In this document: piece by piece, positions 28,113 through 46,417 of the stretch | How the letters are laid out: each line of letters opens with the position of its first letter | Numbering within the stretch: position 1 is the first letter of the stretch | From: Ectocarpus siliculosus | Lineage: Eukaryota > Sar > Phaeophyceae > Ectocarpales > Ectocarpaceae | Assembly (NCBI GenBank): GCA_000310025.1 | Contig: FN648366.1 | Span: 268,575-319,483, forward strand | Direction: 5' to 3' | DNA length: 50,909 nt | Notes under the pieces: generated by a model | The model's database searches: none | The model's input: the letters and a program-made list of their open reading frames with translations, nothing else | Told to the model about the DNA's origin: nothing | Program-made: the position numbers and the translations under genes

Positions 28113-28402
28113 TTATAGCATTCCGGTTCGCGAGCGGCTCATTGTGGAGCCCGCGGCTCGGACCTCGCACCCCCGGGGCCACGCGACGCTCTGCAGGGGG
28201 ACGTGGTTGCTGAAGAAGAACTGTCCGAAGACAAGCTGTTCGATGCCCTGAGGCCACACAACGGTGTCCACTCGCTGCCTGTAGCTGCGTCCGAGCTTGA
28301 GCTGCCGAGACGGTAGGCGTACACGCGGGAGAAGAAGAAAAATGGGACTTAGGGCAGGTGCCATATCGGTTTCGTTGTGGAGACAACAACGACAACAGCA
28401 AA

Positions 28403-28448
<46 letters not shown>

Positions 28449-28850
28449 ACAACAACACTGCAACACCAACATCAACTCCGACACCAACACCAAAACCACC
28501 AACAACCGCAACAACAAACAGACCCAACAACAACAACAACAACAACAACAGCAACAGTGGCACACGCAACAACACCACCACCACCACAAACAACAGCAAC
28601 AACAAACAGGACCACCGCAACAACAGCAACAATAACAACAACACACAGCTATAATACCATCAACCAACAACACCAAAACGTTGCCACCCAATCGATTGTC
28701 ACCTTCTCAAGCCCCACCGGCCAGCGCACCCCCTGAAGCCCCTCGTTGAAACCGTCACCGAGGCTCAGCTCCTTCAGAGAAGCGGGAAACGCCGCGTTGT
28801 CTAGGAAACCCGTCGGAAAGCCTCCCTGGAAGTGAAGCTTGATCAGCCTG

Positions 28851-28892
<42 letters not shown>

Positions 28893-31800
28893 CTTCACGT
28901 TAAAAACCGTTACGTTCTCTCTACCCAGTACCTTCTTCTGTCCGTACTAGTCAAACACTTGACTCGGTCGATTCCCGCGTGCGTGAGGTTCATGAGCGGA
29001 GAGGTTGGGGGTGCGGCGCTCGATGCAGTACAGAGTGGTTTTGCGCCACCAGGTCAAAGGCATTGGTTGGCAGTTGCGAAAGCAAACACAAATACAAAGA
29101 GCTTTCTGGTCACTTCACGCTTCCGCCGATTCCATAAATTGTCAACAATATATTTGTTGTTGTGCTTGTCTTGACATAAAAACGGTTCCGGTCTCCGCTC
29201 AGTACCTTTTAGTATCCGTACTGGTCCACCTGACGCGAACGTAATGCCTTCAAGCAAGCTCAATACGTAATGCAGTAAAGGGCACCAAAGTAAACCCGAA
29301 ACGGGGATCAATTGTAGCGTAACCCAGCCTCCACAGGAAACCCGTAACAAAAGTGATCATTTGTAGCGAAGCCCAGTCTCCGCCAAACATGCTAACTCTG
29401 CCGTACCTCGGGGACAAGGGGGTTCTCCGGAGAAGCGGGAGCACCCGGCACACCAGAGACAGTTCCTCGAGCGTGTCCGGCCACTTCACGCCTCCCAGGG
29501 GCTGCTTGAACTCCCACCCCAGGGAGACAACGCGGAGCGACCCCGGCCACGAAACGCCTTCCAGGGCCTGGTCGAAGTTGCGGCCGAAGCGGAGGCTTCG
29601 CAGGCAAGGGGGCCAGCTTGCCAGCTCGACCGGCTGGTCGAAGGACTTCCCGAAGATCAGCTGCGGGTGTGATGGTGCGTGGGGTATTGAAATCGCAGGG
29701 TTGCTTGTCAAGAGGGGCATCCATGCTGAGATCTAACACGGCGCGGGCTTGTTGGGTTTCCGAATGTTCGCTGCGGCGAGTTTTTCGCGGGGGTACGCGC
29801 TGTAGTAAGATCGCGGGGTTGTTTGTCAAGAGGTGTGCTGAGATCTCTAACACGGTGCGGACTTGTTGAAAGAATTTCCGAAGGTCAGCCTCGGGACTTT
29901 CTCGACACGGTGCGTGCGGTAAAAAATCGTGGGATTGTTTTGTCAAGAGGGGTATCTGTCTTGAGATGTAACACGGTGCAGGCTTGCCGAACGAGTTTCC
30001 GAAGGTCAGACTGCTGGTTGTTTTCCGAGACGGTGCATGCGGTATGATAATCGTGGTGACTCGCCAAGATCTGACACAACTGGTTGGATTTGTCTCGTGG
30101 AAGGTCTTCCAAGCTATGATCACCCGGAGGTGGCTAGCGGAGGCATACCGTCCTTTTTCCTCCAAAGGCTTCATCCTGCTGTGCATTTGATTAACCCAGA
30201 AGATCTGATATCGGTGGAAACTAGAAATTAACACACACGTTTGGTCACGCTATAAGTAGCAGACAAGCGACCGTCGCAAAAACCCTCCGTATTGTAGTTG
30301 TTGCTGTTGTGGTTGTCTTCACACTAAAACCCGGGCGGTTCTCTCTACCCAGTACTCCCTTCTTCTGCGCGTACTAGTCTAATACTTGACGCGGTCGATT
30401 CCCGTGGTTGCAGGCTAACTTACGATAAAAAGGTACAATAATTCTACACTAAAACTAACATGTAACTAGCACAATAGATTATTTTCTGCAAGAAGCAGCG
30501 TTCGTCTGGATACCGCAGCGGGGGCCCTCGGCAGACCCGCAATGCTAGCAACGTGCGTGTTACGATTTCAACGGCACTATTGCGGACACCTTGCACGACC
30601 CAACCAGCCCTAATGGAGGCCCACCACCACAAGGTGATGTACCACTATTGATGCTTATTGACGTGCTAGAAGAGGCGTTTTGTACCTTCTGGTGTGCCCA
30701 AGGCCTTACCTCTTCGAGCCCAACCGGTCACACGACCCGTTCCACGTCACGATTTAAAGCGGGTTTCGAAAACCATCCCCATTTTTTACCTCTGTGGCTA
30801 CATGAGAAAGAGGCGTTTTGCACCTTCTTCTGGTGGCCAATGACGTACCTCTTCGAGCCCTGCGGGCCACACGACCCGTTCCACGGGACGGTTAAACCGG
30901 ATTCCGAAAACCATCTTCCTGAGACCCATGGGGAACACCGTCCTCTCGATTTCTCGGTCGAAGGCGTTCCCGAAGGCCACTTCCTCCAGCATCCTTGGCC
31001 ACCGCACCGCCTCCACCTCCTGAAAATCAAAAACAGCATTTCAGACCGCGCCACCGCCCTTAAGAACCTTGTTGTTTTGGCCAAAGCTCGTTCCACAGTG
31101 TTGTTTTTCGGGGTAAGCCAACATCTTCTACATTTTTTTCCGTCGCCCATTTTTTTCTCGACGTCGACCCTTCCACCTTTCCGGAACAAGCGGTATCAAC
31201 AAGAAAACTTGCCCTCGGGACACCGTTGAAATACAGGCAGGTTCCGCCAACGCTACAAGTATGCAAATGAATTTATTCATTGCTAATCTATCGTACAGAC
31301 TCTATTTGGAAAGAGATGGATTGGTTGTGTCATGTTGCGAAAAAAAAAAAAAGCCCCGGCCAAACCTAGAGGAAATCGTGGAAATACAGAGCCTTCGCTG
31401 ACGGTATGTATTCATTTCTACTCTATCGTAGACTCTCCTCTACGGATAGAGATGGATTCGCTGTGTCACATTAGGAAAAAAAGAAAAGAAAACGCGGCCT
31501 ACTGTACCTGGTCGAAGTCCGCGCCGAACGACAGCTTTCGAAGCCCCGACGGCCATTCAACTCCTTGGAGAGCCTGTAACGCCATCAGTGTTTGTTTGGT
31601 TCACACGGCGGTCGGGTGGGAAGAGAGTGGGCGCGCGCAGTCCATGATCTGATGAAACGAGCTTCTTTTGACTTGCCGGGGGGTGGAGAGTAGAGCATAT
31701 TTTCGTAGATCTCGAAGAGATGACAGATATTTCGAATGGGCATGCGCAGTCGATGCTCTGATGAAACGAGCTTTTGACTTGCCGGGGGGGTGGAGAGTAG

Positions 31801-34800
31801 AGCATATTTTCGTAGACCTCGAAGAGATGGCAGATATTTCGAATGGGCATGCGCAGTCGATGCTCTGATGAAACGAACGAACGTTTGACTTGACGGGGGG
31901 CGGAGAGTAGGGGCACTTTCTCGTAGATCTCGGAGATGACAGATACTTTCTGATGTTTCGGCTGGTGGTGGTGTTTGATGACGGTAGGTAGTGTTGGGCG
32001 GTGTTGGCACAGGAATCTGTTGCGCGCATCCGAAAATAAAACGACGCCGTTTCGTGGCCGATCTGGTGTTGTACATGGGAACCACGATTTATACTGTATT
32101 GAGAGTGCCATCGGGTATGCGGGCAAGAACACACCAGTGCCCTAACCCTAAGGAACTTAATCGTTACCCTGTTGGCGGCGGCGTGGAGGTTTGTGTGTGT
32201 CTCTATTGTTTGCATCGACCGCGCTACCGTAGGTGACATGCATATGATATGACACTCCCTGGACCGACTTCCACGGCCTGATTACTCCACGACAAAAAGA
32301 GGATGCCGAAATCAAAAGATGCGTTCTCAGAAAGCTCTCGACTAGGCGGTTCCAAGGCCGTCATGTTCGGCACCATTACTGCTTTTGCTACGGTTTATTC
32401 GAGCTTTGAAAATCGGTCCAGGGCGTGTGAGATATCTTATTCAACCTACGGAAACAGGCTGACCAACGAATGGATGCCAGGAGCAGTGCGGTTGAAAACG
32501 GGAAAAGCTGCAATGGGTCATGATGTGGGACTCCGTGAGGGCGGAATATGAGGGAGGCGTGCGTGCGTACGACAACGAAAGGACGCCAGAATCAGTGCGG
32601 TTGAAAACGGGAAACGCTTCTAGAGGCCATGATGTGGGACCCCGTGACGGGGGATCACGAGGGAGGATAGACTGTGTAAGCGGCTGCGTGAACCCTTGAC
32701 TCGGTCGTGCCGACGCTGGTAGAGGCAAAGGCGCGAGCACCGTAGGTTTCGAAAGACACCACACCCTCTGGACCGAAATAGTGCCGGTATGTGGCCAGTA
32801 ATTCACCGCCACTATTCCGGCCCGGTACTATTCGAAGTAATGAGAATGACTTGAAAATTCAGTGTGTGCCCGCCGAAAACACCGAACCGGCACTATATCG
32901 GGCATTAGCACTATTCAACCGGCACTAAACAGGGACCTCTGCTGTGTCTCCACGACCACGAAAGGGATATCCTCAAAATTAATTCAAGCGTTTCGGAAAA
33001 AAAAAACTCCCGACAACATGGTTCCAACGCCACGAAAGGGATATAATCAAAATCAATTCGAGCGTTTCGGAAAAAAAAATCTCGACAACATGGTTCCAAC
33101 GCCACCGTTTTCGGCACCGGCACTGATGTTCTTCCTGCCGCGTACCAGAGCTTTGAAAATCAGTCCGCGGGGGGGTGGTGTTATCTTTCGTATGCAACCT
33201 ACGGTATATCAACGCAAGATACCGCACGCCCTGGACCGATTTTCAAAGCTCGATTTCTCAACAGCAGAAAGAGTTGCGGCGTCGAAAACGGCGGCGTTGA
33301 AGTCGTCTCGTCGACAGCTTTCCGAAAATGTATCGTTTCGTTTATGCACCCTCTTCGTCGTGGAGTAATCGAGCTTACTTCCTTGCGTACGGATGACAAC
33401 TGCGTATGACTTGATTTATGTTCTGGTGTTTCACTTCCAGAGACGGTTACAAGCACTGTTTAACTGCCTCGAGAGTTGCCTGACCATTTTAACACAACGT
33501 GGTGCGATTATCCCGGGTGGGAGGGTGTTATCTTTCGTATGTAACCTGCGGTACTTCCTTCGGCGGCTGAGCATAACCGCGTCAGCTGGCCCATACCCCC
33601 ACCTTGTTGAAGCTGCGGCCGAACACAAGCTCCTTGAGCGCCCTCGGCCAGGCTGCCACGCGCACCGGTTGGTTGAACGCGCAGCCGAACGACATTCTCT
33701 CCAACCCGTCCGGCCACGCCACTTCGTCTATCGCCTGCGGGACGTTTCGTCGACGTCAAGAAAAAGCTAAATTGTTTTGCGGTACGAGCGATGGTACAAT
33801 AGGGGGCGTGCACTTTTGGGGTTGACATCTTACCGTAGATTGCGTAAGATACCAACCCCCCCCGGAACGATTTGCAAAGCTTCATTCCAATGCCAAGACG
33901 ATGAATGAACGAACCGAAACGTTTTCGGAGAGCTCTCGACCAGACGGGTTCAACGGCGCCATTTTCGGCACCCCCACTTCCTCTGTACCGTAGACGACAC
34001 AAGATAACACACCCCCTGGACCGATTTTCAAAGCTCGATTATGCCACGACGAACAACATTCACTGACGGAACGATGCAGTTTCGGGAAGCTCTCGACGAG
34101 ACGGCTTCAACGCCGCCGTTCTCGACACCACCGTTCTCTCTGCTGTTGAGAAATCGAGCTTTGAAAACCTGTCCAGGGGGTGTTATCTTGTGTCGTATAC
34201 GGTAGGGGCGGTGACATCTTCCGGTTTTGGGAGAATCGGGTACCAGTCCTGTTTTGGTTATCCTACATCGATACGTCGCGGCCAACAGGTTGAAGAAGAG
34301 TGTGTCACCCCACCCGAAGGCGTAACACGAGGTGACCCCGTACCACAGCATCGCTCGTACAATACGGTACGCGCAACGGTGAAGAACCGTCAAGCCCGAT
34401 CAATTGCGGTTATCCGAAGAACAAAAACGGTACGCGCAACGATAAAGAACCGCCTAGCTCGATCATTTGCGGTATGCGAAGAACGAAAACGGTACGCGTA
34501 CCGGTGAAAAACCGGCCGGCTCCATCAATTGCGGTATCAGATAAAAAAACTCAACAGGGTATAAATATGACATTGTGTGTGCGCCTCCGCATGGAAAACC
34601 CCCCGGGCTCTTGTCTGCTGAAGAGATTACCTTGTGGTTTTTCAAGAAAAAAAAAAAAAAGGAGAATATCCGAGAGTTCTTGGTTACGTGCATGTAATTT
34701 TGAATGGACGGAAAAACACCGCATTTGCTCTCTGAAACCCGTACTTTCCCGTAACACCCCATGACTGTTACTCTCACTTAAGAACTTAGCAGTTGAGAAA

Positions 34801-37800
34801 TTGATGTTGCCTCGAAAAACCCAATGCCTAAGAACACTTGAGCACCAATTTGTGAGCCCGGATAAGAAACTCTACACTAAAACCTATATAGCGACCTTTC
34901 GTAGCATGACCCTAGGAATACGGTAACAACCCAACCCTTGGCCGAAACTACGAACGGGCGCTGTGTGTAGAGGTTTGAAATCGGTCCAACGGGTTGTGGT
35001 ATGTTACGCAAACCTACGGTTTTCTGCGTTGGAACTCTGTCTCGTCGAGAGCGAGCTTTCAGAAAAATTGCCATTTGATTTCGTTCAAACCAATATAGCG
35101 ACCATTCCTAGCATGACCCTAGGAATACAGTATAATAACAACACCGGCCTCGAAAATCGGAAACAACCCCGGCCTCGGCCGAAACTACCTATTTGGAGGT
35201 TCTGTGGGTGCTAGCTAAACAGTGGGGGGCCCTCAACAACGGCGCCGGTATGTGCCCGGCGCATCGACCGGCGCAATTCATTGTACATTACAGTGAGGGT
35301 CCCTGTTTAGTGCCGGTTGAATAGTGCCCATGCCCGGTAAAGTGCCGGTTCGGTGATTTCGGCGGGCACACACTGAATTTCCAAGTCATTTGTACTGTGA
35401 ATAGTGCCGGTTCGGCATACAGTAGCGCCGTGGAATTTTCTGGGCACATACCGGCACTAAACAGGGACCCCCACTTTAGTGGCTTGGGTGATTCAGTCTG
35501 TGCCCAGCAATTCCACAATTCCACCGGCGCTCTTCCGGGCCACCGGCGCCAATCAACCTGCGTTGTTGACGTCCCCCCCACCCACTTTTTTTTTTTTTTT
35601 TTTTACCTGGTTGAAGCGGTCGCCAAAGGCCAGGGTTCGGAGCCCGTCCGGCCACCGTACCCCGGCCACCGGCATGTTGAAGTGGAAACCCAGAGACAAG
35701 TGTCGCAGCCTTGCCGGCCACACCACTCTGTCCACGGACTACAGGATGAAGCAAAAACAAGAGAGAACGCGAAAGCATAGAAAGGGGGTTACGGCGTGGA
35801 GAACGGGGGGGGTACCCTCGAGCGAGGCCTTGGATCACTCTGTCCATGGACTACGGCATGAAGCAAAAACAAGAGAAAACGCGAAAACATAGAAAGGGGG
35901 GTTACGGCGTGGACAACGAGGGGGGGGTACCCTCGAGCGAGGCCTTGGATCACTCTTTTCACGGAGTACCGGAAGAAACAAAACGCGACGACACACCGGA
36001 AGAGTCGGAGAGATAGTACCCCCCGTGTTAGCCTACTTTCATTGCGTGTTTCTCCACGACTAGGAAGGTGCGAACGCCAAACGCTACGTCTCAGGAAAGC
36101 ACTCGACGAGATGTTTCCAAGACTACTCCTTTCGGTACTGGTGTGTACCCCGCTGGTTGGGGAGAAACACGCTACAAAAAGACGGTAACACGGGGGGGGG
36201 GCGCCAGCTCTCCGACAATTACGGTAGAACGGGGTACCGCATGAAGAACGTGGACCGGGGGGGGGGGTGACAAGTTGACAGTCTTGGTGATTGGAGCCAA
36301 ACGGGAACCAAGAACTCGATTGAGGGCTCAGTTGTGAGCAAGCAGAGTGGGTTTTGGAGGAGCGTGATCGGCCCAACGAATGGGAATCAGAACCCGCCGC
36401 ATTGTCACCCAACGCTGGAGAAGACATCACACCCCCTGGACTGAGTTTTCAATGCTCGAATACTCTACAGAAAGAACATTAGGCGGCGGCGGCGTTGGAA
36501 CCTATTGTGGCCGTCAAAGGCATCTCAGCTTACAGCAGGGTCACACGTGTGCGGGACTTCATCGACGGGTTATCTTAACGCTATGAGCAGTGGACCAATC
36601 ACAACGTGCAACCGAGCGGGTACATGCACGCACTACGCCTGCAGTCTCTGCGGCACGGTAACGAATTTCCTGTGGCCGTCAAGATTTCTCAGCCTACAAC
36701 AGATAACCCTAACCCTAAGAAACGCGGACCAAAAACCATGTACAACCGAGTGGGTGCTTGATGCGGCATGGTCGCGAGATACTGCTGTGGTCGTCAAAGG
36801 CACCCCAGCTTGCTAGATTGGGATGCATGTGTGTGTGTCTTTCTTGTTAGCATCGACCGCGCTAACCGACTGACTTAGGGTTAGGGTTAGGGTTAGGGTT
36901 AGGGTTAGGGTTAGACTGACCGATGAGAAGACGCGAGTCTCAGTGCTGTTGAAAACCCAAAATGCTTCTAAAGGGCACAATCTGGGACCCTGTGACCGAG
37001 TGTATGTGTGTGTGTTCGTCCTGGCGCGTGTCTAGAGATCGTTCAGCTTGTATATCTGAGGTGGAAAAAACTTGAAATATATCGACAGGGTCACATCTTC
37101 CCGCGACATCTCTCTGTGTAGACCATAACACCTGGTTGAAGTAGAAGACGAAGACAAGGCTCTCCATACCCGGAGGCCATGCCACCGCCTCCACGGGTTG
37201 GTTGAACTCCTCACCGAGGCGAAGCTGCTTCAGCCCCTGTAGGGTAAGCGGCGCGGCAGGTGAAACGGCAACGAAAATTCAAGTCTGTTTTCCCGGACCG
37301 CCTTTTTTTTTTTTTTTTTTTTTTTTTGTTCTTCACTTCAAATCAGCGCTCACAGCACTAGTGCCGTTTATTCCAACCCGTGGTCACACAGAAGAGCCTA
37401 TCTCTACCCTCCCCTCCTGCGGTACTTCGCCTTCAATTTTTAATGCGAGAAGAGTTCAGCACTCTCTTCCCTCTGTGTACACACGAACTAGCGCTATCCA
37501 CTTGGCCAGGAGCGGAAGCGAGAGAAAAACTCACTTTGCAAGAAAAGCTCGCCTACGCCGGGATTCGAACCCCTGACCTGACCTCTAGAAGGTTACGAGG
37601 CTACCAACTAGACCACCGGGGCGACCTTAGGAAGGGGTGAATCGTCCTGCGGTAGCTTGTGACGTTGAGGGTCGGGTATGGGTCATGGCGATGGCGGTGC
37701 GTAAAGTTCAGCCGCGGCAGCGGGAACACAATCTTGCAGCAGCAGCACTAACACCACCGACGCTGAAAGCAGCTCAACAACACCCACAACAACAGCAAAC

Positions 37801-37838
37801 GCAACAATAACAACGACAACAACACCAACAACATCACC

Positions 37839-37875
<37 letters not shown>

Positions 37876-40800
37876 CCGCCAGCAGCAACACCAACACCAA
37901 CACCAACACCAACACCAACACCAACACCAATGTCAGCAACACCCAAGCCATTAGCGCCAGCAGCAGCACAAAATGTATGTCGGGAGCAGAACAACAACGA
38001 CAACAACAACAGCAACACCCAAAGGATCATCATCATCATCATCATCATCAGCGGCAGCAGCAGCAGCAGCACAAAAAACACGTCGGGCACCTACCTGCGG
38101 CCATTTAACTTGGTCCACCGGCTGGTTGAAGTCCGACCCGAAAACGAGGCTCTGCAGAGACTGTGGCCACACTACGTTGTTGACAGGCTTTTTTTTTTTT
38201 TTCCGTTCATCGTGCAAAATGAAAACGAAAACAAGCAGACGGCGTGGGCAGGCAGCAAGAACAGTCAATGACAAGGAAAGGCAGAAGGCGGGGACGCAAG
38301 GGAGCGGGGAATAAAATATCGGTAGGCTTCGCAGGGTTTTTCTCTAAGGCAAAATGTTGGATAAATCATGGTGAAGTTGGGTTAGGGTTAGGATTAGGGT
38401 TAGGGTTAGGGTTAGGATTAGGGATAGGGTTAGGGAATAGGGTCTGCGTTCCCCGTCCCTGTAATTTTCCCTCAATAAAAACTTAATTTCTCGCCAAAGA
38501 CGGCCCAATTATTGCAGCATCGCCATCGAGCACCATTTGCGAAAGAACCTCGTGTGAGACTAGATATCTGCAACCTACCAAACCAGTAGGTTACCGCGGG
38601 ATTCTCAACAGCAGATGTACGCCTTGTCTTGTACAGTCTCCTTCGCACAATTATCTTTGACGTTATGAGTCTGAATTTACAACTCACAGCCTCGTGCTTA
38701 AGTGACGGCGGATTCTGTGCCCATTTGTTTTAAGTGGTAAAATATTGGGGGGGGGGGGGGGAGAAGCAAGACTGAACCTTCCCCCTAACAAGTCTTCACT
38801 GTTCCTTCCTGCCTATCTGGACAATAATACCGCGTGTTACTTGGTTTCAATGCAGAATCTTCCTCCTGATTGACCTTGGCTGACATTGTCAAGTATATTC
38901 CAAAGATAGGTGTAGACTATAATAACATTAAAGCAGAAGATACACATGGTGTTGTCGCCTACGGTACGAAGCTACACCGAAAACTAATGGTGTGCCAGTT
39001 CAGTGTACAGCCTTAAACAGACTCAAACTAAGCCCCAAGCATAAGACGATTTTCGTTTCACCCACTATAAGGACTTCAACACATACCCTTCGACTATGAA
39101 TATTTCTCAAACAGGAGGGCTTTCTGCGTTTGTATTTATATTTTCTGAAGCTCGAGAGCGCCTCGTATCGCCTCTTGAAAGACGACCTTGAAACTGTGTG
39201 AGCGATGAGGAACTTCTCTACAGTTCGGATCCGCGCTTAAGAAACTGGCAGTTTGATAATAAAGCACAATGGCCTCGAAGACTCCCAAAATCGAAGAAAT
39301 TGAGCACAGTTAAATAACTCGTTAATGAACCCTACTTTTATACCTGTCTACCGGTCATTCGTACCATAACCCTATGCATAGGAACCAAGAACCTCAGCCT
39401 CAGCCTCAGCCAAAAATAGAGTCTCATAAGTGCCAGCGCTAAAATTGTTTTAATTACCAACCTGGTTGAATTTCCTCCCGAAGCGTAGCTCTTCCAACCC
39501 CCTTGGCAGGATCCCGGGTGCGGGGGAACCGTTGAGTGCGGCGGAACCGTTGGGTGCGGCGGGACCATTAGGTGCGGCAGAACCGTTGGGCGCGGCGGAA
39601 CCATTGGGTGCGGCGGAATCGTTGCTGGTAGGAGCTTCGGCCGCCGCCGCCCCTACGGCTTGGTTGAAGTTTTTCCCGAAGGATAGCTTCTTCAGCCCGG
39701 CGGGCCACTCCGTCGACTTCACCTCCTGAACAGGCCACGAGCGTACATAGCATGGTTGATGGCGAAGAGAATCGAGTGAAGATGGTACAGCAGTATCTAA
39801 ACGAAATATAATTACCAACAAGCATGTATTTTGTAGTTTTCGTGTATGTATACGAACGTTGTAGGTAAGCGGTCAGCAACACCACCGCTCCAAAGTGGAT
39901 AATATGCTAGACGATCAACAACAGCAACAACCGCAACAACGACAACAAACGAACCACAATTACCAACAAGTACATTAACGTTGTCGGTAAACAGCAACAA
40001 CAACGCCACCACAACTACCGCTACCAACAACACACAAAAGAAGATGCCAGAACAAACAAACAAACAAAAAACTCGCCTGATCGAACATCTCCCCGAACAC
40101 CAGTTCTTCCAGGCCCCCAGGCCAAGACACCCGCGACACCGGCCTGTTGAAGTCGTTCCCGAAGGCTAGCCGCTGTAGTCGAGGGGGCCACGAGACCTGG
40201 TGCACCGGGCGATTGAAGCTGTGTCCGAAAGAGAGGCGCTGCAGGTCGGTCGGCCAAGCGACCTGTGTGTGTTAGGGAAAGGGAAAAAGGGGCATAGGAG
40301 CAACATTTGTGTTCTATAAGGGTTTGTTAGGGACAAGGAAAAGGGGCATAGGAGCAACATTTGTGTTCTATAAGGGTTTGTTAGGGACAAGGAAAAGGCG
40401 CATGGAGCAACATTTGTGTTCTATAAGGGTTTGTTCGGGATGAGGAAAAGGCGCAAAGGAACAACCTTTTGGGTTTTATTAGGGCTTGGTATAGGGATAG
40501 GCGTGCTGGAACGACCTTTGTGTTTACGGGGGAAGGAACGGGTGTGTGAGGGATAGGCGTACGGGAACAACCTTTGTGTTCAGGGGGTAATGGTAGGGTT
40601 TGCTACGGATAGACGTACAGGAACGACCATTGAGTTTAGGTGGTAATTGCAGGGTTTGTTAGGGATAGGCGTACAGGAACAACCTTTGGGTTTAGGTGGT
40701 AATTGTTAATAGTAATAGGGTGTGTTAGGGATAGACGTACAGGAACCACCTTTGTGTTTCAGGGCGCCATGGGCAGTAGTTATAGGGTTTGGTGGGGATA

Positions 40801-43800
40801 GGGGAAGACTCGACACAAACAGAATCTCCACGTCAACGCAAGAAAAAAGAAGGTACAATGGTCACACAGGCGGTGCACCTGGGCGACCGGCGGCGTCAAT
40901 ACTCAAAACAAACGGATTAGGAAGTAAAACTCCAAGTCATGTAAAGGCAAAACAGCTTCACAAAAAAAACAGTGTACGATGACTACCACGACAAAATAGA
41001 GGCGGCGTATGCATACCTGGTGGATCGGCGAGTCGAAGTGAAAAAACAAACAGAATCGGAAAAATATATATTTAAAGAAAATACGATAAAAGGAACAACG
41101 ACCACACGAAATAGAGGTACTGTAGTATACCTTTCTTGTGTAAGTCAGCCTGTGACCACGGGAATCGACCGCGTCAAGTATGGACAGATGGAGGTACTGG
41201 GTAGAGAGAACCGTACGGTTCTTAATGTGAAGACAACGACAACCTGGTCGATCGGCGCCGTGAAGACGCAAAACATGCCAAAAAAACACCCCAAACTCGA
41301 GTCACTATTATAGCACGAAGAAACAGGTAACGACGACAAAAGAATCGACCACAACACACTAGAGCATACCTGGTCGATCGGCCAGTTGAAGGCGTAACCG
41401 AAAGATATCTCTCTGAGGCCATCTGGCCAGCTCATCCCCTCGACGCTCTTGTTGAAATGCATCCCGAAGGATAGAAGTCTCAGCCCTTTCGGGAAAACCA
41501 CACCTGGAAAAACATGCACCATCCAATAGAGCAAAGGTACAAGACCATTACTGTTAGCACATATCTTATACAGACCGCTAGCTGTAGTTTGTCTCAGAGG
41601 ACGGTGAAGAGGAAAACGTTCGTCGACACTGTGAACCTTGGCCAATCGGATAGTATTGATACAGGCCAGCAGTATGTAATCGCAGTTTTCCCCAGAGGAC
41701 GTGGCGAGGAAAATGTTCGTCAAGAGAGTTGAGATATCGGAAGCGCCATTTTTTTAAATGTCCATACTGTCAAAGAAACATTTCCCGTTCGGATATACCC
41801 ACACAGACAGTCGAAAGGGATGTATGCGTTGAAGTATTTTCAGCGAGTGGAGGGAACCCGGCGGAAAACTGGGCGCATGTGAGTTTGCTTAAGCCTAAGC
41901 ACTGAAATTGTACCAGTTATACCAGCGCTACGTTTTGCTAGGTGCTGTCTAGCGGGGGGTTTTCGTGCCGGTTCACCTGAAACGGGCTGGTCGAACGAGG
42001 AGCCCAGGACCAGTTCCTCCAGACCTTCGGGCCAGCCCACGTAGTCCAATGGCTGGTTCCACTTGGTGCTTGTGAGGAAGACGCAAGGGAAACAACGCAC
42101 ACGATCCAATGGTTGATTCCATTCCGTGCTTGGGTCGGCAGGAAGACGCATAAACAACAAGAAGCAACACACGGAAGATACATGCATGTCCGACAGTTGA
42201 TTCCCCGTTTATGCTAAGCAGACGACAAAACGCCCCTCTCGCTAAAATGACGGCAAAAGCCCCTCTCCCTGAAATGACCACAAACACTCCCACCACAAAA
42301 AAATAAATAATACCGGGATGCCGAAAACAAGAAAAAAGTGCGGCCAAACATTAACCGTCTCTCACCCAAAAGTCATCCGCTTCAGACCCGCTGGCCATGT
42401 GGTACCGTCGATTACTTCGTTGAATTCCCTGAGAATTGTTTAGGGGCGAAACGAAAGGGTCGGGAGGTGTTCGACGCTATAAAAGCATTGACACCGGTTG
42501 ACTAGCTCCGGTGGCCATGAATACCGCTGGCGAAATTTCTTCGGACAGTCAATATCACCAAGTCATTCTGTACATTGAATACGGCCGGTCCCTCAGAATA
42601 GGCCTCAATATATGCTTGTGTGTCTTGTTTTGCTGATTGGGTGGTTCGGCCGTGGCTCCGATAAGGAGGGGGTTCAGATACATGAGGGTCGAAATCGGTT
42701 GTCGCGGACTCGACCCTCTGTAGCAAAGTTTCATTCCGGTATGAGAGGGGGCTCCGATACAAGAGGGCCGAGGGTCTTTTTTCGCACCACCCTCTTATAT
42801 CCCACCCTCTTAAATCGCAGCCATGACTGCATTTTCTATTTTTTGGTTGTTGGTGGTAGGTGTTATTTTTTGTTTGTTGGGAGGCATTATGTAGCGCAAC
42901 GTGTGAGCATAGATACTACACGGAACGGGCTGAGCTCTTTCATAGGAGGCATGTAAGAACAGATGTCTACTACACTGCCAAAGACGGTCACAACAACAAC
43001 AACAACAACGACGACAACAACGACAACGACGATATGCATAGCACCTGCCGAAGTTAACCTCCTCGAGGCCAGGCGGCCAGCGCACCAGCGACAGCGATTG
43101 GCTGAACCCGTCACCGAACGTAATCCTGGTCAAGCCTCGGGGCCACGCAACCCCCTTCACGAGCTCTCCGACGGGCCTACAAGGGGAAGACGCAGAATGG
43201 ATCCGGGAGGGGGGATGTACTCATAGTCATGAATGCCGTCGTCGTTAGACCATTGACCTCACAGACCTACAAAGCCGGGGCGGAGCACGCCGTGGGGGGG
43301 GGGGCACTGTACGTTGCTTAAGACACCACACCCCGCTGGAGTGATCATCGCACACTTACGCGACTCACTTTCTGGCTCGATTTCTCCAACAACCCCAAGA
43401 GGGTAAAACAAATCGACAGATCCTTCGAGCCTTGATATCTTCACGACGAATAGGATGCCAAAATGAAAACGACGTCGAGATCGATCGGCAAAAGCTCGAC
43501 AAGACGATTCCAACGCCGCCTCTACTTTCGGCATCATTGTCACCGGCCTTGCTGCAGAGTAATAATAATAGAGGTTTGCAAATCGGTCCGCGGGCCGTGG
43601 AATCTTACGCATTCAACCTACGGTACGGATACACACCACTTCTCAGTTATGTTGACCACCTCCTTCGTTGAGACCCCGGCAGTTACATCAGACAGGTAGC
43701 ATTTTCCAGGGTTGTTGTCGGGAATTTCCCGGTGTTTTTCCCGTCTTGGTGGGAGGTCGCGGCATTGGCGGTAATTACCTCCATACTGTGAAACGAAAAA

Positions 43801-45315
43801 CCGTGTATCGCCGAACACGTACCGCCGTATTGCAAAAAATGCCGAAAAATGACGGCCGAAAAACGGAAAACCGCCAAAAGCACCGCCGTATTTGCAGTAC
43901 CGTACCGCAGAAAAAATACCGCCATATTGAAAAAAACCGCCGAACAAAAGAACCACAAGTATTGCGAAAACGGTACCAGCTCAGGGTGCTCTCCCTCGCG
44001 GCTCGGTCGCGCTGCTCGCGTGTCGTGTCGGCCCCGTCGGTCTTTTGTCTATAGGCCTGTGCTCATCAGGGAAAGAAACTCCCTGAGCGCAGATTTCGTT
44101 GGCATGGCGAGAGTTGACATGGCTCAGGCACCGACGCCAACACCAACATCAAACATCAAACATCGACAAGGGTCCACATACCTGTCTGTGCGCTGTGAAT
44201 ATACCTTAGGCACCACCAACGCAAACCCATCACCAACGCCGACACCAACATCAGATAGCGAGGCAGGCGCCCGCAAGCTGCTAGAACAGGCCTCATCAAC
44301 ATCAAACACCAAACATCAGCATTGCAACCAGTGAGGGGGGTCTTATCAACATCAAACGTCAGCCTTTCAAGAAACGCGGAGGGATTACCTGTCCCAGGTG
44401 ACGGTTCGGACGCGAGTCGGCGGGGGAAGCGTCACCCGCCTGCTTCTGCCGCAGAACCCGCCGCCTCTGCTGCTGCTGCTGCTGCAACGCACGGTCGTGT
44501 TCTCGCATGGTCGTTCTATCCTCCTTTCTCGGCCTGCCGACGACAGCGTGGCTACCAAGCTGCCTGGCGTTGTCTTGGCGTGGCCAACGGTAGAAGCCGC
44601 GGTGACTGCTGCGGACGGGACGGTGTTGTTGATGGGTATCTCGCCCCCGCTGATACTGCCGCCGCCGCCGTCACCGCCGCCGCTACCGCTGCTGCTACCG
44701 CTGCTGCCGCTGCTGCTGCCGCTGCTACTATTGCTGCTACTGCTGCTGCTACCGCTGCTGCTGCCGCTGCTAATATTGCTGCTGCTGCTGCTGCTGCCGC
44801 CGCATTCGTCGTTGCTGCTAGCGATGTCAGTGGTTCTGCCTGCGCTCCCGCTGCTGCCGTTGGCTCCACCACCCCGGAAAACGTTATCGGTGACGCTGCT
44901 GACTCTGCTACTTCCCATACCAGCCTCCGTTGTTTCTATTGTCTCCTTGCGCCCACTCGAATCAGCGCCGACGTTACCGTGCCACCCAGCTCCTCGCTTC
45001 CGTCTCCCTCCGACCATAACCCCTCGCCAGGCGTGCTCGAGATCAAGGGCATCGCTCAACACAGCAGCGTCACCATCGGCACCGCCGCCATCACCATCGG
45101 CACCGCCGCCATCACCGTCAACACCACCACCGTTAATCCCTTCCACTCTCACCTCCCCCCCCTCAGACAGCTGCAGCAGCGGATGTTGGTAGTCGTCATC
45201 CCGACTGTTCTCTCGGAACGGGCGCTGATGTTGTTCCGCGAGCCGCCCTTCCGGAGACCCTTCCGGAGACCCTTCCGGATACCCTTCCGGATATTGTTCC
45301 GCGCACTGCTCCAGT
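28113..45315 (-). CDS. FNIP-repeat protein, large multi-exon gene with modular exons
   Basis: Exons in transcript order: 45315-44389, 43176-43045, 42428-42366, 42068-41977, 41503-41370, 40262-40077, 39725-39462, 38187-38095, 37236-37132, 35738-35607, 33734-33603, 31573-31508, 31019-30849, 29660-29454, 28825-28703, 28301-28113 (TAA). Spliced, exons 2-16 are 2089 nt and encode about 29 copies of a 22-residue unit: W-P-x2-L-x2-L-x-F-G-x2-F-[ND]-Q-P-V-x2-V-x. Examples are VSWPPRLQRLAFGNDF and VSWPGGLEELVFGEMF. This is the FNIP-type leucine-rich-like repeat, which is expanded in Dictyostelium and is expected to form a solenoid for protein binding. Frame and 22-residue register are kept across every junction, including those in phases 1 and 2. 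Donors are GT except GC after 40077. The last exon ends SVAWPRG, then a short basic tail. No signal peptide, membrane segment or catalytic domain is seen in the repeat part. The first exon is serine/glycine-rich, and the start codon is unresolved (see 46182-46417). Intracellular interaction or recognition is an inference only. Confidence 0.8.
28383..28640. repeat. CAG/CAA compound microsatellite in last intron
   Basis: Long interrupted (CAG)n and (CAA)n tracts between the last two exons of the FNIP gene. The polyQ, polyT and polyC frames across it are artefacts of the repeat. Confidence 0.9.
28850..28985 (-). mobile_element. CAA-tailed short element, copy 3
   Basis: (TTG)n on the plus strand followed by TCTTCACGTTAAAAACCGTT, CTCTCTACCCAGTACC and GGTCGATTCCCG. 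Lies just upstream (minus strand) of exon 28825-28703 and supplies the (CAA)n sequence near its acceptor. Confidence 0.6.
29140..29250 (-). mobile_element. CAA-tailed short element, copy 4 (short tail)
   Basis: GTTGTTGTGCTTGTCTTGACATAAAAACGGTTCCGG... with CTCAGTACCTTTTAGTATCC and CACCTGACGCG. Same body as the copy at 1912-2103. Confidence 0.55.
30285..30420 (-). mobile_element. CAA-tailed short element, copy 5
   Basis: GTTGTTGCTGTTGTGGTTG then TCTTCACACTAAAACCCGGG, CTCTCTACCCAGTAC and GCGGTCGATTCCCGTGGTT. Belongs to the subfamily with the CTCTCTACCCAG block. Confidence 0.6.
30421..30704. other. Intron sequence, nothing recognised
   Basis: Part of the FNIP gene intron between exons 31019-30849 and 29660-29454. 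Small ORFs only. Confidence 0.4.
30711..30790 (-). pseudogene. Duplicated exon edge (pseudo-exon) in FNIP gene intron
   Basis: The minus strand repeats the 3' end of exon 31019-30849 (the NR-VERVV...GLEE region) and the following donor (GAAGAGGTAAGG). An in-frame TGA replaces the conserved Trp, and the upstream frame is shifted. The flanking intron piece (AAGGTRCAAAACGCCTCTT) is duplicated as well. It cannot be used as coding sequence. Confidence 0.65.
31640..31960. repeat. ~107-bp tandem repeat, three units
   Basis: Units start at CGCAGTCNATG and contain CTGATGAAACGAGCTT, GACTTGCCGGGGGG, GAGAGTAGAGCATATTTTCG and GACAGATATTTCGAATGGGC. The third unit is diverged. It sits directly upstream (minus strand) of the acceptor of exon 31573-31508. 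Confidence 0.85.
32225..32452. mobile_element. TACCGTA-family MITE, copy C
   Basis: TACCGTAGGTGACATGCATA to TTATTCAACCTACGGAAAC, with CCCTGGACCGACTT and TTCGAGCTTTGAAAATCGG arms. Located in the FNIP gene intron 33603-31573. Confidence 0.8.
32466..32668. repeat. ~105-bp direct duplication
   Basis: Two copies of a unit with AGCAGTGCGGTTGAAAACGG, a CATGATGTGGGAC block and GAGGGAGG. A related third copy lies at 36925-37000 (CAGTGCTGTTGAAAACCC ... CTGGGACCCTGTGAC). Confidence 0.7.
32780..32945. mobile_element. Second MITE family (GTGCCGG), diverged copy
   Basis: Ends in AACCGGCACTAAACAGGGAC and begins near AATAGTGCCGGTATGTG. It shares the interior CACACACTGAATTTYCAAG (inverted) and CACCGAACCGGCACTA with the cleaner copy at 35292-35475. 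Confidence 0.6.
33115..33553. mobile_element. Cluster of partial TACCGTA-family MITEs
   Basis: A right arm at 33145-33206 runs directly into a left arm and interior at 33203-33371 that lacks its own right arm. Another right arm lies at 33503-33553 (GGGTGGGAGGGTGTTATC, TGCGGTA). This looks like insertion of one copy into another followed by loss. Confidence 0.6.
33829..33985. mobile_element. Partial TACCGTA-family MITE
   Basis: Left arm TACCGTAGATTGCGTAAGAT plus interior (GAGAGCTCTCGACCAGACGG), with no right arm. It is abutted by a complete copy at 33986. Confidence 0.6.
33986..34204. mobile_element. TACCGTA-family MITE, best-preserved copy
   Basis: 219 bp. The left terminus TACCGTAGACGACACAAGAT continues AACACACCCCCTGGACCG. 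The right side is its near-perfect inverse, ending TTATCTTGTGTCGTATACGGTA (ends shared with copy B). Confidence 0.9.
34371..34545. repeat. 62-63-bp tandem repeat, three units
   Basis: Units start ACGCGCAACGRTRAAGAACC and contain GATCAATTGCGGT and CGAAGAACRAAAACGGT. Lies in the intron between 35607 and 33734 of the FNIP gene. Confidence 0.85.
34960..35030. mobile_element. TACCGTA-family MITE right-arm fragment
   Basis: GTTTGAAATCGGTCCAACGG, TGTGGTATGTTACGCA, ACCTACGG: one arm only. Confidence 0.5.
35292..35475. mobile_element. Second MITE family (GTGCCGG), clean copy
   Basis: The inner 20 bases of the left end, GGGTCCCTGTTTAGTGCCGG (35297), are exactly inverted at 35451-35470. With one mismatch the inverted repeat extends to AGTG at both outer ends, giving a 184-bp element. 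Intronic in the FNIP gene, 130 bp upstream of the plus-strand position of exon 35738-35607. Confidence 0.75.
35725..35990. repeat. Tandem copies of an exon acceptor edge (~118-bp unit)
   Basis: The first bases of exon 35738-35607, its acceptor and ~100 bp of upstream intron (CACTCTGTCCACGGACTAC, GATGAAGCAAAAACAAGAG, then GGTACCCTCGAGCGAGGCC) are repeated at about 35838 and, diverged, at about 35951. Only the first copy is followed by the FNIP coding sequence. Confidence 0.8.
36016..36203. mobile_element. MITE-like foldback element, variant
   Basis: CCCCCCGTGTTAGC ... GCGTGTTTCTCC on the left is inverted as GGAGAAACACGC ... GGTAACACGGGGGG on the right. The interior resembles the TACCGTA family (CACTCGACGAGAT, TTTCGGTACTGG), but the ends differ. 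Confidence 0.5.
36408..36480. mobile_element. TACCGTA-family MITE left-arm fragment
   Basis: GACATCACACCCCCTGGACT then TTTTCAATGCTCGA: the left arm only. Confidence 0.45.
36875..36914. repeat. Interstitial telomeric TTAGGG tract 2
   Basis: About 6.5 perfect TTAGGG units in an intron of the FNIP gene, with two CCCTAA units inverted about 165 bp away (36705-36718). The flank GCATCGACCGCGCTA is shared with 32213-32227, where a short CCCTAACCCTAA also lies nearby. Confidence 0.95.
37303..37626 (-). mobile_element. tRNA-derived SINE, full copy 2
   Basis: Minus strand: GGTCGCCCCGGTGGTCTAGT head with A box TGGTCTAGTTGG and B box GGTTCGAATCC, the common body, and a 25-nt poly(A) (T on plus, 37303-37327). 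It differs from the copy at 5382 by few bases and lacks its TCTA duplication in the anticodon-loop region. It lies inside the intron just upstream of exon 37236-37132. Confidence 0.85.
37745..38060. repeat. CAA/CACCAA microsatellites in FNIP gene intron
   Basis: Runs of (CAA)n, (CACCAA)n and (ATC)n with imperfect edges. The long minus-strand V/L/G-rich frames are translations of this repeat. Confidence 0.85.
38378..38443. repeat. Interstitial telomeric tract 3
   Basis: TTGGGTTAGGGTTAGGATTA and further units, about ten in all with variants (GGATTA, GGGATA, GGGAATA). It is preceded by GAAGTTGGG exactly as is the short tract at 47453-47470. Confidence 0.9.
38444..39455. other. FNIP gene intron, nothing recognised
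   Basis: About 1 kb of AT-richer sequence with a G14 run near 38747-38761. Short ORFs without motifs; one Ser/Thr/Pro-like minus frame (39338-39604) overlaps the exon 39725-39462 out of frame. Confidence 0.4.
39517..39626 (-). repeat. In-frame 18-bp minisatellite inside a FNIP exon
   Basis: Within exon 39725-39462 about six copies of an 18-bp unit encode N-G-S-A-A-P (variants N-G-P-A-A-P, N-G-S-A-A-L). They form a flexible linker between two FNIP units. Because 18 is a multiple of three, copy-number change keeps the frame, and the whole exon is 264 nt, four times 66. Confidence 0.85.
40270..40800. repeat. ~55-bp minisatellite, nine units, at an exon acceptor
   Basis: The unit GGGTTTGTTAGGGAYAAGG / GGAGCAACATTTGTGTTC recurs at intervals of 50-56 bp (one 66). 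The first three units are almost identical; units become more diverged with distance. It abuts the acceptor of exon 40262-40077 on its intron side. The ORF across it reads LTNPYRTQMLLLCPF repeats and is not considered coding. Confidence 0.9.
41011..41390 (-). repeat. Three copies of an exon donor edge
   Basis: The true end of exon 41503-41370 encodes NWPIDQ followed by GTATGC. In the downstream intron the same edge recurs at about 41241-41262 (APIDQ, then GTTGTC) and 41011-41045 (FDSPIHQ, then GTATGC). Each has the CAG-GT donor but lacks the rest of the repeat. Confidence 0.7.
41137..41245 (+). mobile_element. CAA-tailed short element, copy 6
   Basis: Plus-strand body ACCACGGGAATCGACCGCG, then GAGGTACTGGGTAGAGAGAA and CTTAATGTGAAGACAACGAC. 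The same subfamily as the copy at 30285-30420, in opposite orientation. Confidence 0.6.
42060..42215 (-). repeat. Three copies of an exon acceptor edge
   Basis: The start of exon 42068-41977 (acceptor, then TGGAACCAGCCATTGGAC) is repeated upstream in the intron as TGGAATCAACCATTGGATC (about 42118) and GGGAATCAACTGTCGGAC (about 42200). Each is preceded by a similar TGCGTCTTCCT / TTGCTTCTTG pyrimidine stretch. Only the proximal copy continues into coding sequence. Confidence 0.75.
42430..42985. other. FNIP gene intron, nothing recognised
   Basis: Contains two related GAGGGGGYTCCGATACANGAGG blocks near 42667 and 42747 and ends in a (CAA)n tract near 42990-43033. Confidence 0.35.
43319..43626. 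mobile_element. TACCGTA-family MITE, longer variant
   Basis: Left arm AAGACACCACACCCCGCTGG and right arm GAGGTTTGCAAATCGGTCCG ending ATTCAACCTACGGTA. About 308 bp with a longer interior (AAAGCTCGACAAGACGATTC). Confidence 0.55.
43780..43990. repeat. Irregular ACCGCCGTATT / GCCGAAAA repeat
   Basis: Many overlapping copies of ACCGCCGTATTGCAAAAA, CCGAAAAACGG and TACCGCCATATTG, with no fixed period. Lies in the intron between exons 44389 and 43176. Confidence 0.6.
44389..45315 (-). CDS. Low-complexity N-terminal exon of the FNIP-repeat gene
   Basis: An exon of up to 927 nt ends at 44389 with AG before a GTAATC donor (phase 2). This joins exon 43176-43045 to give PPTRVRTVTWDR followed by PVGELVKGVAWP, which fits the 22-residue register (a degenerate first repeat). 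Upstream it encodes E-G-S-P repeats, acidic GGGVDGDGGGADGD repeats and a long Ser/Gly tract. The tract is a (CAG/CGG)n region that is open in several frames on both strands. The acceptor at 45315 (TATGGTGCAG) is my choice because its phase (1 nt) fits a possible exon further upstream. The same frame is also open to an ATG at 45545, across a local duplication. The frame +1 alternative (MREHDRALQQQQ...) near the 3' end looks protein-like too but would not join the repeats. Confidence 0.45.
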
Positions 45316-45535
45316 CTGCACCATAGGTGCCGGGGAGTGTTTTCGGAAACCCGGACGTGCCAGGGGTCTCCATCCCGACAATCTCTGCGATTTTTGTTTT
45401 TTTCGCCGGGGCGGGAGGCAGGCGTGTTTCGGGGAGGGGGGGGGGGGGGGTAGGGGGGGTACGTGTTTTCATCTGGCAGGGGGGAATTTTCTCTAAGAAA
45501 CACGGACGTGCCAGGGGTCCGCCATCCCGACATTT

Positions 45536-46181: not shown

Positions 46182-46417
46182 CTGCAGATGGTCACGGAAG
46201 CGAGCTGCAGCTGCTTCATCCTCCCGGGGGGTATCCACCCGGAGAGCACCACCACCCGCAGGCCCTTCCGCACACTCGCCAGCCGCTGCTGCGTCCCCGC
46301 CCCCGCCGATTCCGTCGCACTTCCTGCTCCCGTCGGCGCCGTTTCTGACTGGCCAATCATCATCGTGGGGGTTTCGGCTCCTACCGGCGGCACCGCGTCT
46401 GATTGGTCGATCATCAT
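46182..46417 (-). CDS. Possible first coding exon of the FNIP-repeat gene
   Basis: Minus-strand frame from an ATG at 46417 (MMIDQSDAVPPVGAETPT, with a related second copy MMIGQSETAPTGAG) to LASVTIC, where AG precedes a GTGTGT donor in phase 2. Spliced to the acceptor at 45315 it continues R-LEQCAEQYPEGYPEG in frame. Start, membership and even coding status are uncertain. The frame continues upstream without an ATG to a stop, and the plus strand is also open here. Confidence 0.3.

Follow-up and report, generated by a model that had tools for sequence, protein, structure and literature searches.

An intron-rich FNIP-repeat gene of Ectocarpus siliculosus whose repeat-aligned junctions may in large part reflect donor-like letters of the repeat

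In the brown alga Saccharina japonica, 121 FNIP proteins are reported, nearest by their repeat to a Cafeteria virus (PMC4421812), and 104 FNIP sequences are reported for one brown alga (PMC9525666). An FNIP pseudogene is described within a region of viral DNA of Ectocarpus (PMC2373305). Repeat-sized exons are described for another class of brown algal genes, the LRR-ROCO genes, whose exons are reported as 72 bp long, in phase 2 and each coding for a single LRR; alternative splicing and diversifying selection are reported for them as well (PMC11378527). Among the titles and abstract openings found in the literature on brown algal FNIP proteins and on exon shuffling, none names exon-split FNIP genes, and in the one paper where FNIP and exon shuffling co-occur the latter stands in the title of a reference.

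The gene described here lies in the window, the whole stretch of 50,909 nucleotides of Ectocarpus siliculosus DNA that was analysed (G000:C477:268575-319483), which reaches the contig end in an assembly of 189 Mb and 492 contigs. A first-pass annotation of the window had read the gene as a chain of exon modules aligned with its repeats.

Gene model, N-terminal domain and repeat array

The corrected gene comprises 17 exons on the minus strand (46417-28113; Table 1), with a CDS of 3390 nt encoding 1129 residues and containing no internal stop. Exons were joined by eye from splice letters and the repeat register, the donors of exon 15 and exon 7 being choices made in joining. Every internal acceptor carries AG and 15 of the 16 donors carry GT, with GC at the donor of exon 7 (GCGAGT). 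Mean lengths are 199 nt for the exons and 932 nt for the introns; for comparison, intron means of 703 bp (E. siliculosus) and 1,057 bp (S. japonica) have been published (PMC4421812). The fifteen minus-strand exons previously joined in one frame are exons 3-17 (43176-28113), which join without a stop behind an N-terminal part of two exons. The sequence is best read as an intact, intron-rich protein-coding gene, the splice sites of which are presumed to be used.

The earlier exon joins stood, and the acceptor of exon 2 was moved from 45315 to 45384 (AATCGCAG^AGATTG, where ^ marks a junction). The open reading frame translation has HVRVSENTPRHLW in frame ahead of the former start, and the shift gives ICRDCRDGDPWHVRVSENTPRHLW across exons 1 and 2. 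The resulting N-terminal domain aligns with that of 15 other FNIP proteins, of which 7 are named as brown algal, with C35, R39 and P53 invariant and 42% identity between the window's domain and that of protein P0023. As the uninterrupted domain of these relatives matches exons 1 and 2 taken together, it speaks for exon 1 and for the junction that follows it. In a poorly resolved tree of the domain, the window gene is nearest to P0023 and to a locus of its own genome, L036. The Pfam matches of the 16 N-terminal domains (E up to 10, with most weak matches lost to the HMMER filters, so that a very diverged F-box could escape) include no F-box model, and on this ground assignment to the F-box/FNIP proteins of the mimivirus L60 type was rejected.

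Table 1 Exons of the FNIP gene and decayed copies of exon edges in its introns (positions in the window).
Feature	Positions	Strand	Remarks
Exon 1	46182..46417	-	Start codon; N-terminal domain, first half
Exon 2, corrected acceptor	44389..45384	-	N-terminal domain, second half (DCRDGDPWHVRVSENTPRHLW); low-complexity linker; PTRVRTVTW
Exon 3	43045..43176	-	132 nt; phase 2/2; register 35/35
Exon 4	42366..42428	-	63 nt
Exon 5	41977..42068	-	92 nt
Exon 6	41370..41503	-	134 nt
Exon 7	40077..40262	-	186 nt; GC donor; FDQ^ at end
Exon 8	39462..39725	-	264 nt; register 48/48; ~44 low-complexity residues
Exon 9	38095..38187	-	93 nt
Exon 10	37132..37236	-	105 nt; FNQ^ at end
Exon 11	35607..35738	-	132 nt; register 48/48
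Exon 12	33603..33734	-	132 nt; register 48/48
Exon 13	31508..31573	-	66 nt; one repeat; register 48/48
Exon 14	30849..31019	-	171 nt; LEE^ at end (register 21)
Exon 15	29407..29660	-	254 nt; phase 2 end
Exon 16	28703..28847	-	145 nt; LEK^ at end (register 21)
Exon 17	28113..28301	-	189 nt; stop TAA
Exon 2 start copy, decayed, intron 1	45481..45532	-	Score 56; maximum 25 in 200 base shuffles
Exon 5 acceptor and start copy, intron 4	42097..42150	-	Score 40; 0/100 shuffles
Exon 6 end and donor copy, intron 6	41011..41038	-	Score 41; 0/100 shuffles
Exon 11 acceptor and start copy, intron 10	35836..35870	-	Score 55; 0/100 shuffles; 112-bp tandem unit, 2.3 copies
Exon 14 end and donor copy, intron 14	30688..30770	-	Score 80; 0/100 shuffles; stop in exon frame (by eye)
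Exon 15 acceptor and start copy, intron 14	29981..30018	-	Score 34; 0/100 shuffles; 121-bp tandem unit

Following the N-terminal domain and the low-complexity linker is an array of ~29 FNIP/FGxxFN repeats of 22 residues. Their identity as FNIP repeats, proposed at first pass, was upheld by a profile search, in which Pfam FNIP (PF05725) reached 264.5 bits against a cut-off of 21 over 12 stretches of the protein as modelled before the exon 2 correction. Scored for repeats by a scheme built from the window gene and eight homologs, the window has 29 matches of at least 8, every one of them on the minus strand (43163-28209), against a maximum of 5.6 in the reversed window; outside this gene, neither the window nor the adjacent 20 kb of the contig holds further FNIP repeats. 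One register runs along the array, as had been claimed, and it is less than strict: ~44 low-complexity residues interrupt it in exon 8, and it slips by one residue in exons 15-16, where three units span 67 residues. The inserted residues, rich in Ala/Asn/Gly/Pro and lying between two FNIP repeats, are encoded by a minisatellite (39516-39624) with an 18-nt coding unit in 6.1 copies.

The window gene has the LxxLxFGxxFN consensus of the Crov-type FGxxFN LRR proteins. Its most variable repeat positions are 12, 13, 3 and 20, the two x of FGxxFN being among them. In the CroV study, variability is described as highest at the FGxxFN positions, and the concave side is proposed as the binding face (PMC9525666). 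In the model of a relative, P0075, pLDDT is at least 90 for 247 of 446 residues, mostly in the repeats, and the N-terminal domain appears as two helices and a strand with low to middling confidence. The best structure matches of this model are CroV588 and CroV539, with which exons 7-14 of the window gene align by sequence at 465 and 249 bits, respectively. Judging from these solved and modelled relatives, the repeats should stack as a curved solenoid, which would probably serve for binding other proteins, and a recognition or immune (receptor) role can be surmised.

Junction positions and other FNIP genes of the genome

The 14 repeat-to-repeat junctions have registers (nt, W=1) of 35, 32, 58, 60, 48, 48, 9, 48, 48, 48, 48, 21, 11 and 21. 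Six of them (E7/8, 8/9, 10/11, 11/12, 12/13 and 13/14) are at register 48, that is after residue 16 and in phase 0 (FNQ^x), where the first-pass annotation had placed six junctions after the Q of F-N-Q; residue 16 is Q in all but one, where it is K. Equally recovered are its modules of 66, 132, 132 and 264 nt (E13, E11, E12 and E8) and its symmetric exon at 43176-43045 (E3, 132 nt, with phase 2 and register 35 at both ends), which make up the five register-symmetric exons of the gene. Phase symmetry extends to 11 of the 15 internal exons, including eight consecutive phase-0 symmetric exons, E7-E14, and such modules would indeed stay in frame if skipped or copied. When the order of junctions is shuffled (registers entered by hand, that of exon 2/3 included), equal registers are clustered with P 0.024 and phases with P 0.012, as local exon duplication would leave them.

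At the six register-48 junctions the last codon is CAG in five and AAG in one, and the following codon starts with G in four. Splice donors favour CAG^GT. Under a uniform-position null, six of 14 junctions at register 48 were reached in 0 of 200,000 draws. Across 28 other FNIP loci (361 repeats), the shares of C/AAG triplet ends are 23% at register 48, 18% at 21 and 17% at 18; drawing junctions by this rule gives P = 0.083 for at least six of 14 at register 48, and a cluster of six at any register has P = 0.13. With the stricter rules AG^G and C/AAG^R the share at register 48 is 6-7%, and P falls to 7e-5 and 2e-4, respectively, for six at register 48 and to 0.007 and 0.06 for a cluster of six anywhere. 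The CAG codon of FNQ coincides with the donor consensus, and the alignment of junctions with repeats would in large part, though not certainly, be a donor-letter effect of the repeat.

The other FNIP loci of the genome were first sampled as 28 loci, the 8 best in 3.1 kb each and 20 of 9.9 kb, many with short open frames; the sample is biased, as 150 of 1539 candidates were scored and the window gene itself was absent from the list. An array intron is absent in 27 of the 28. All repeat-start gaps are at most 150 nt in 22 of these, L018, L019, L023 and L025 have one gap of 156-171 nt each, and in L030 a distance of 4.6 kb separates two arrays, taken as two putative genes. The split locus, L006 (C12:727063), reads GVKE^gtgcgt ... 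gcgcag^VSFG, with 702 nt at register 21 in phase 0 and a possible second intron; found with a lower threshold, it overturned a census in which 28 of 28 were unsplit.

Among FNIP loci of the genome chosen for their relatedness, three further arrays are cut. In the gene at C3:6130122-6135340, an ortholog of the annotated Ectocarpus sp. 12 protein P0038, the array is cut at FNQ^A in phase 0, and P0038 is continuous across this junction. L042 (C15:4284401) is cut at FNQ^D in phase 0 by a 301-nt intron (GTACGT...TGTAG), and its paralog L043 (C6:1947394; C6:1947300-1949000) has broken frames with FNQ^ intron borders at the same place. A relative of L042, L036, is unsplit and keeps the repeats on both sides of the intron spot (70 and 64% nucleotide identity), so that here an intron would have been gained or lost without movement of an exon. 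These four split genes, each with one array intron in the stretch read, provide a new observation: they use FNQ^x (three) or VKE^x (one), both of which are registers used by the window gene, and the window gene is in the minority of this genome's FNIP genes that have array introns. Pooled with these genes (L042 and L043 counted once), 8 of 17 junctions are at register 48 (P 0.03, or 0.005 when the C/AAG share of the window itself is used), so that FNQ^ is somewhat over-used even under the donor-site rule; 11 of 17 are at register 48 or 21 (P 0.04). The three register-21 (codon 7) junctions have GAG, AAG and, in L006, GAG; with GAG at two of the three, the C/AAG rule does not cover all of them. 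Of 27 window repeats compared with the repeat that follows the C3 intron, the opening one of exon 12 matches best (71%), a hint that the two genes may share one old intron.

The DNA matches listed for the window gene in its own genome, with scores for the best candidates, comprise a ~320-bp element of intron 9 and 12 short dispersed ones, and no near-identical paralog is among them. An FNIP gene located elsewhere in the genome has 90-91% identity with an FNIP gene of Ectocarpus sp. 12, which fits assignment to Ectocarpus or a near relative. In public proteins, the best identity over at least 40 residues is 51% among 144 proteins (68 + 76 hits), in a comparison that scored only similar-length proteins sharing words, with queries that were partly pieces of the protein as modelled before the exon 2 correction; none of five further hits is closer. 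C5:2141349, tried as an intronless ortholog (55% to exons 9-13, 176 aa), was set aside for its other N-terminal domain and homogeneous array.

Exon copying and the content of the introns

Nucleotide identity between repeats averages 0.53, with 0.68 for the best pair and no trend with distance. By codon position it is 0.53, 0.63 and 0.43, and fourfold sites are saturated (0.316 against 0.313 by chance), which together point to old repeats under long purifying selection on the protein. The likeness among repeats at module edges does not exceed that of randomly picked ones, with P values for ends and starts of 0.14 and 0.10 by nucleotide and of 0.49 and 0.23 by BLOSUM, and intron-to-intron similarity in the gene consists only of dispersed and tandem repeats. 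The repeat and fourfold tests do not demonstrate that exons were copied from one another, saturation leaving copying visible only if recent, and the gene appears to bear little sign of recent copying or shuffling of its exon modules.

Decayed copies of exon edges are present in the adjoining introns of exons 2, 5, 6, 11, 14 and 15 (Table 1), at distances of 65 to 353 bp from the originals. The search covered 30 of the 32 exon edges and the adjoining intron only, 29 edges being compared with 100 shuffles each and exon 2 with 200. Acceptor copies of exons 7 and 16, among the seven edges that exceeded all 100 shuffles, were dropped as simple or minisatellite sequence. Each of the intronic copies found corresponds to an edge and none to a whole exon. 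Tandem arrays with periods of 107-121 bp occupy intronic positions 31628-31950, 32464-32666, 35724-35983, 29848-30069 and 40495-40703. Tandem duplication is a recognised route of intron gain (PMC3443670), and intronic duplication of this kind could make exons.

The element in intron 9 (37298-37626) is dispersed, with at least 39 genome matches at 97-100% identity; a tRNA-like head and a poly-A tail, identified by eye, suggest a young tRNA-derived SINE, and ARAGORN finds no tRNA in it. Interstitial TTAGGG-type arrays are located at 36875-36914 (intron 10) and 38379-38442 (intron 8), and none of at least two exact units occurs in 22 other FNIP loci of ~10 kb scanned. Elsewhere in the window, a LINE-like segment on the plus strand (17703-19830) comprises a reverse transcriptase open reading frame (18379-19830; RVT_1, 56 bits) and an upstream open piece, and the stretch at the contig end (50664-50909) is repeated 136 bp earlier, possibly an assembly edge.

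Competing explanations and known systems

We consider it probable that this is a conventionally spliced FNIP LRR gene in which junctions are favoured by donor-like letters of the repeat, and in which introns were inserted rather than exons copied. Introns would often land at such letters, either the CAG (Gln) of FNQ or the Gln/Glu/Lys codon 7 of LxxL, and the 22-residue periodicity would then produce 'repeat-aligned modules' automatically. Short tandem duplications would later have arisen in the introns, in some cases copying an exon edge, and these copies would now be decaying. The first-pass annotation had instead proposed shuffling of the kind reported for LRR-ROCO and NB-ARC-TPR genes, with FNIP as a third scaffold. 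Taken further, this view would have symmetric one- and two-repeat exons duplicated, lost or moved, and perhaps alternatively spliced, yielding a diversified recognition surface. The five register-symmetric exons with their clustered registers (P 0.024), the run of eight phase-0 symmetric exons from E7 to E14, the six edge copies in adjoining introns and the variability of both x of FGxxFN are in its favour, the clustering of registers and phases lending it mild support. We regard it as rather unlikely, given that the best repeat pair reaches 68% nucleotide identity with fourfold sites at chance and no distance trend, leaving no recent exon pair, that edge repeats resemble each other as random ones do (P 0.10-0.49), that no intronic copy found is a whole exon, that CAG accounts in large part for the junction position (C/AAG rule, P = 0.08), and that the non-repeat N-terminal domain also holds one intron. 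Copying is not established, the gene is unlike one with exons being copied now, and the likeness to ROCO and NB-ARC-TPR shuffling is weak. A group of FNIP genes with FNQ^x phase-0 introns, one of which grew by tandem duplication of exon plus intron into skippable modules that diversify a binding surface, would constitute a third brown algal repeat scaffold, and this too seems unlikely.

The gene might also be decaying or dead, its frame surviving by chance. Some of its splice sites are weak (G at +5 in only 9 of the 16 donors, GC in one donor, and A-rich stretches immediately upstream of exons 9 and 16), its introns are filled with repeats, no match of at least 40 residues exceeds 51% identity among the 144 proteins, and the related L043 has broken frames; set against this, 1129 codons across 16 introns contain no stop or frame break despite saturated fourfold sites, which makes decay improbable. 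Joining by eye, which involved a choice of donor at exon 15 and, with GC, at exon 7, could have merged two or more genes or introduced a wrong join, but the N-terminal domain is complete across exons 1-2 and matches uninterrupted relatives, and the absence of FNIP repeats from the rest of the window and the next 20 kb likewise makes such an artefact very unlikely.

If junctions are indeed favoured by donor-like letters, a periodic coding sequence with a splice-donor triplet in its repeat yields 'exon modules' seemingly made for shuffling, a caution for similar claims on brown algal repeat receptors. Paralogs with and without an intron at the same repeat boundary provide a clear test. Should strains differ in module number, FNIP proteins would be a candidate variable receptor family, with ~100 reported members per genome.

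NB-ARC-TPR genes are defined by NB-ARC and TPR domains. A Pfam scan of the first protein model returned FNIP and a sub-threshold gag-asp_proteas match only, with no ROC-COR, NB-ARC or TPR domain. The window gene is like the LRR-ROCO genes in having repeat-sized symmetric exons in a brown alga, and unlike them in that its exons measure 66-264 nt and are mostly in phase 0, rather than being single-LRR exons of 72 bp in phase 2. Its repeat sequence resembles that of CroV588 and CroV539, viral FGxxFN LRR proteins composed of FNIP repeats (PDB 6nyr, 7zal; PMC9525666), a likeness that covers the repeats alone. With the brown algal FNIP proteins the window gene shares both the 22-residue WPxxLxxLxFGxxFNQ repeats and the N-terminal domain; it differs from them in a WPxGL consensus, where the others have WPASL, and in the 14 junctions that divide its array, the arrays of 27 of the 28 loci first sampled being without an intron.
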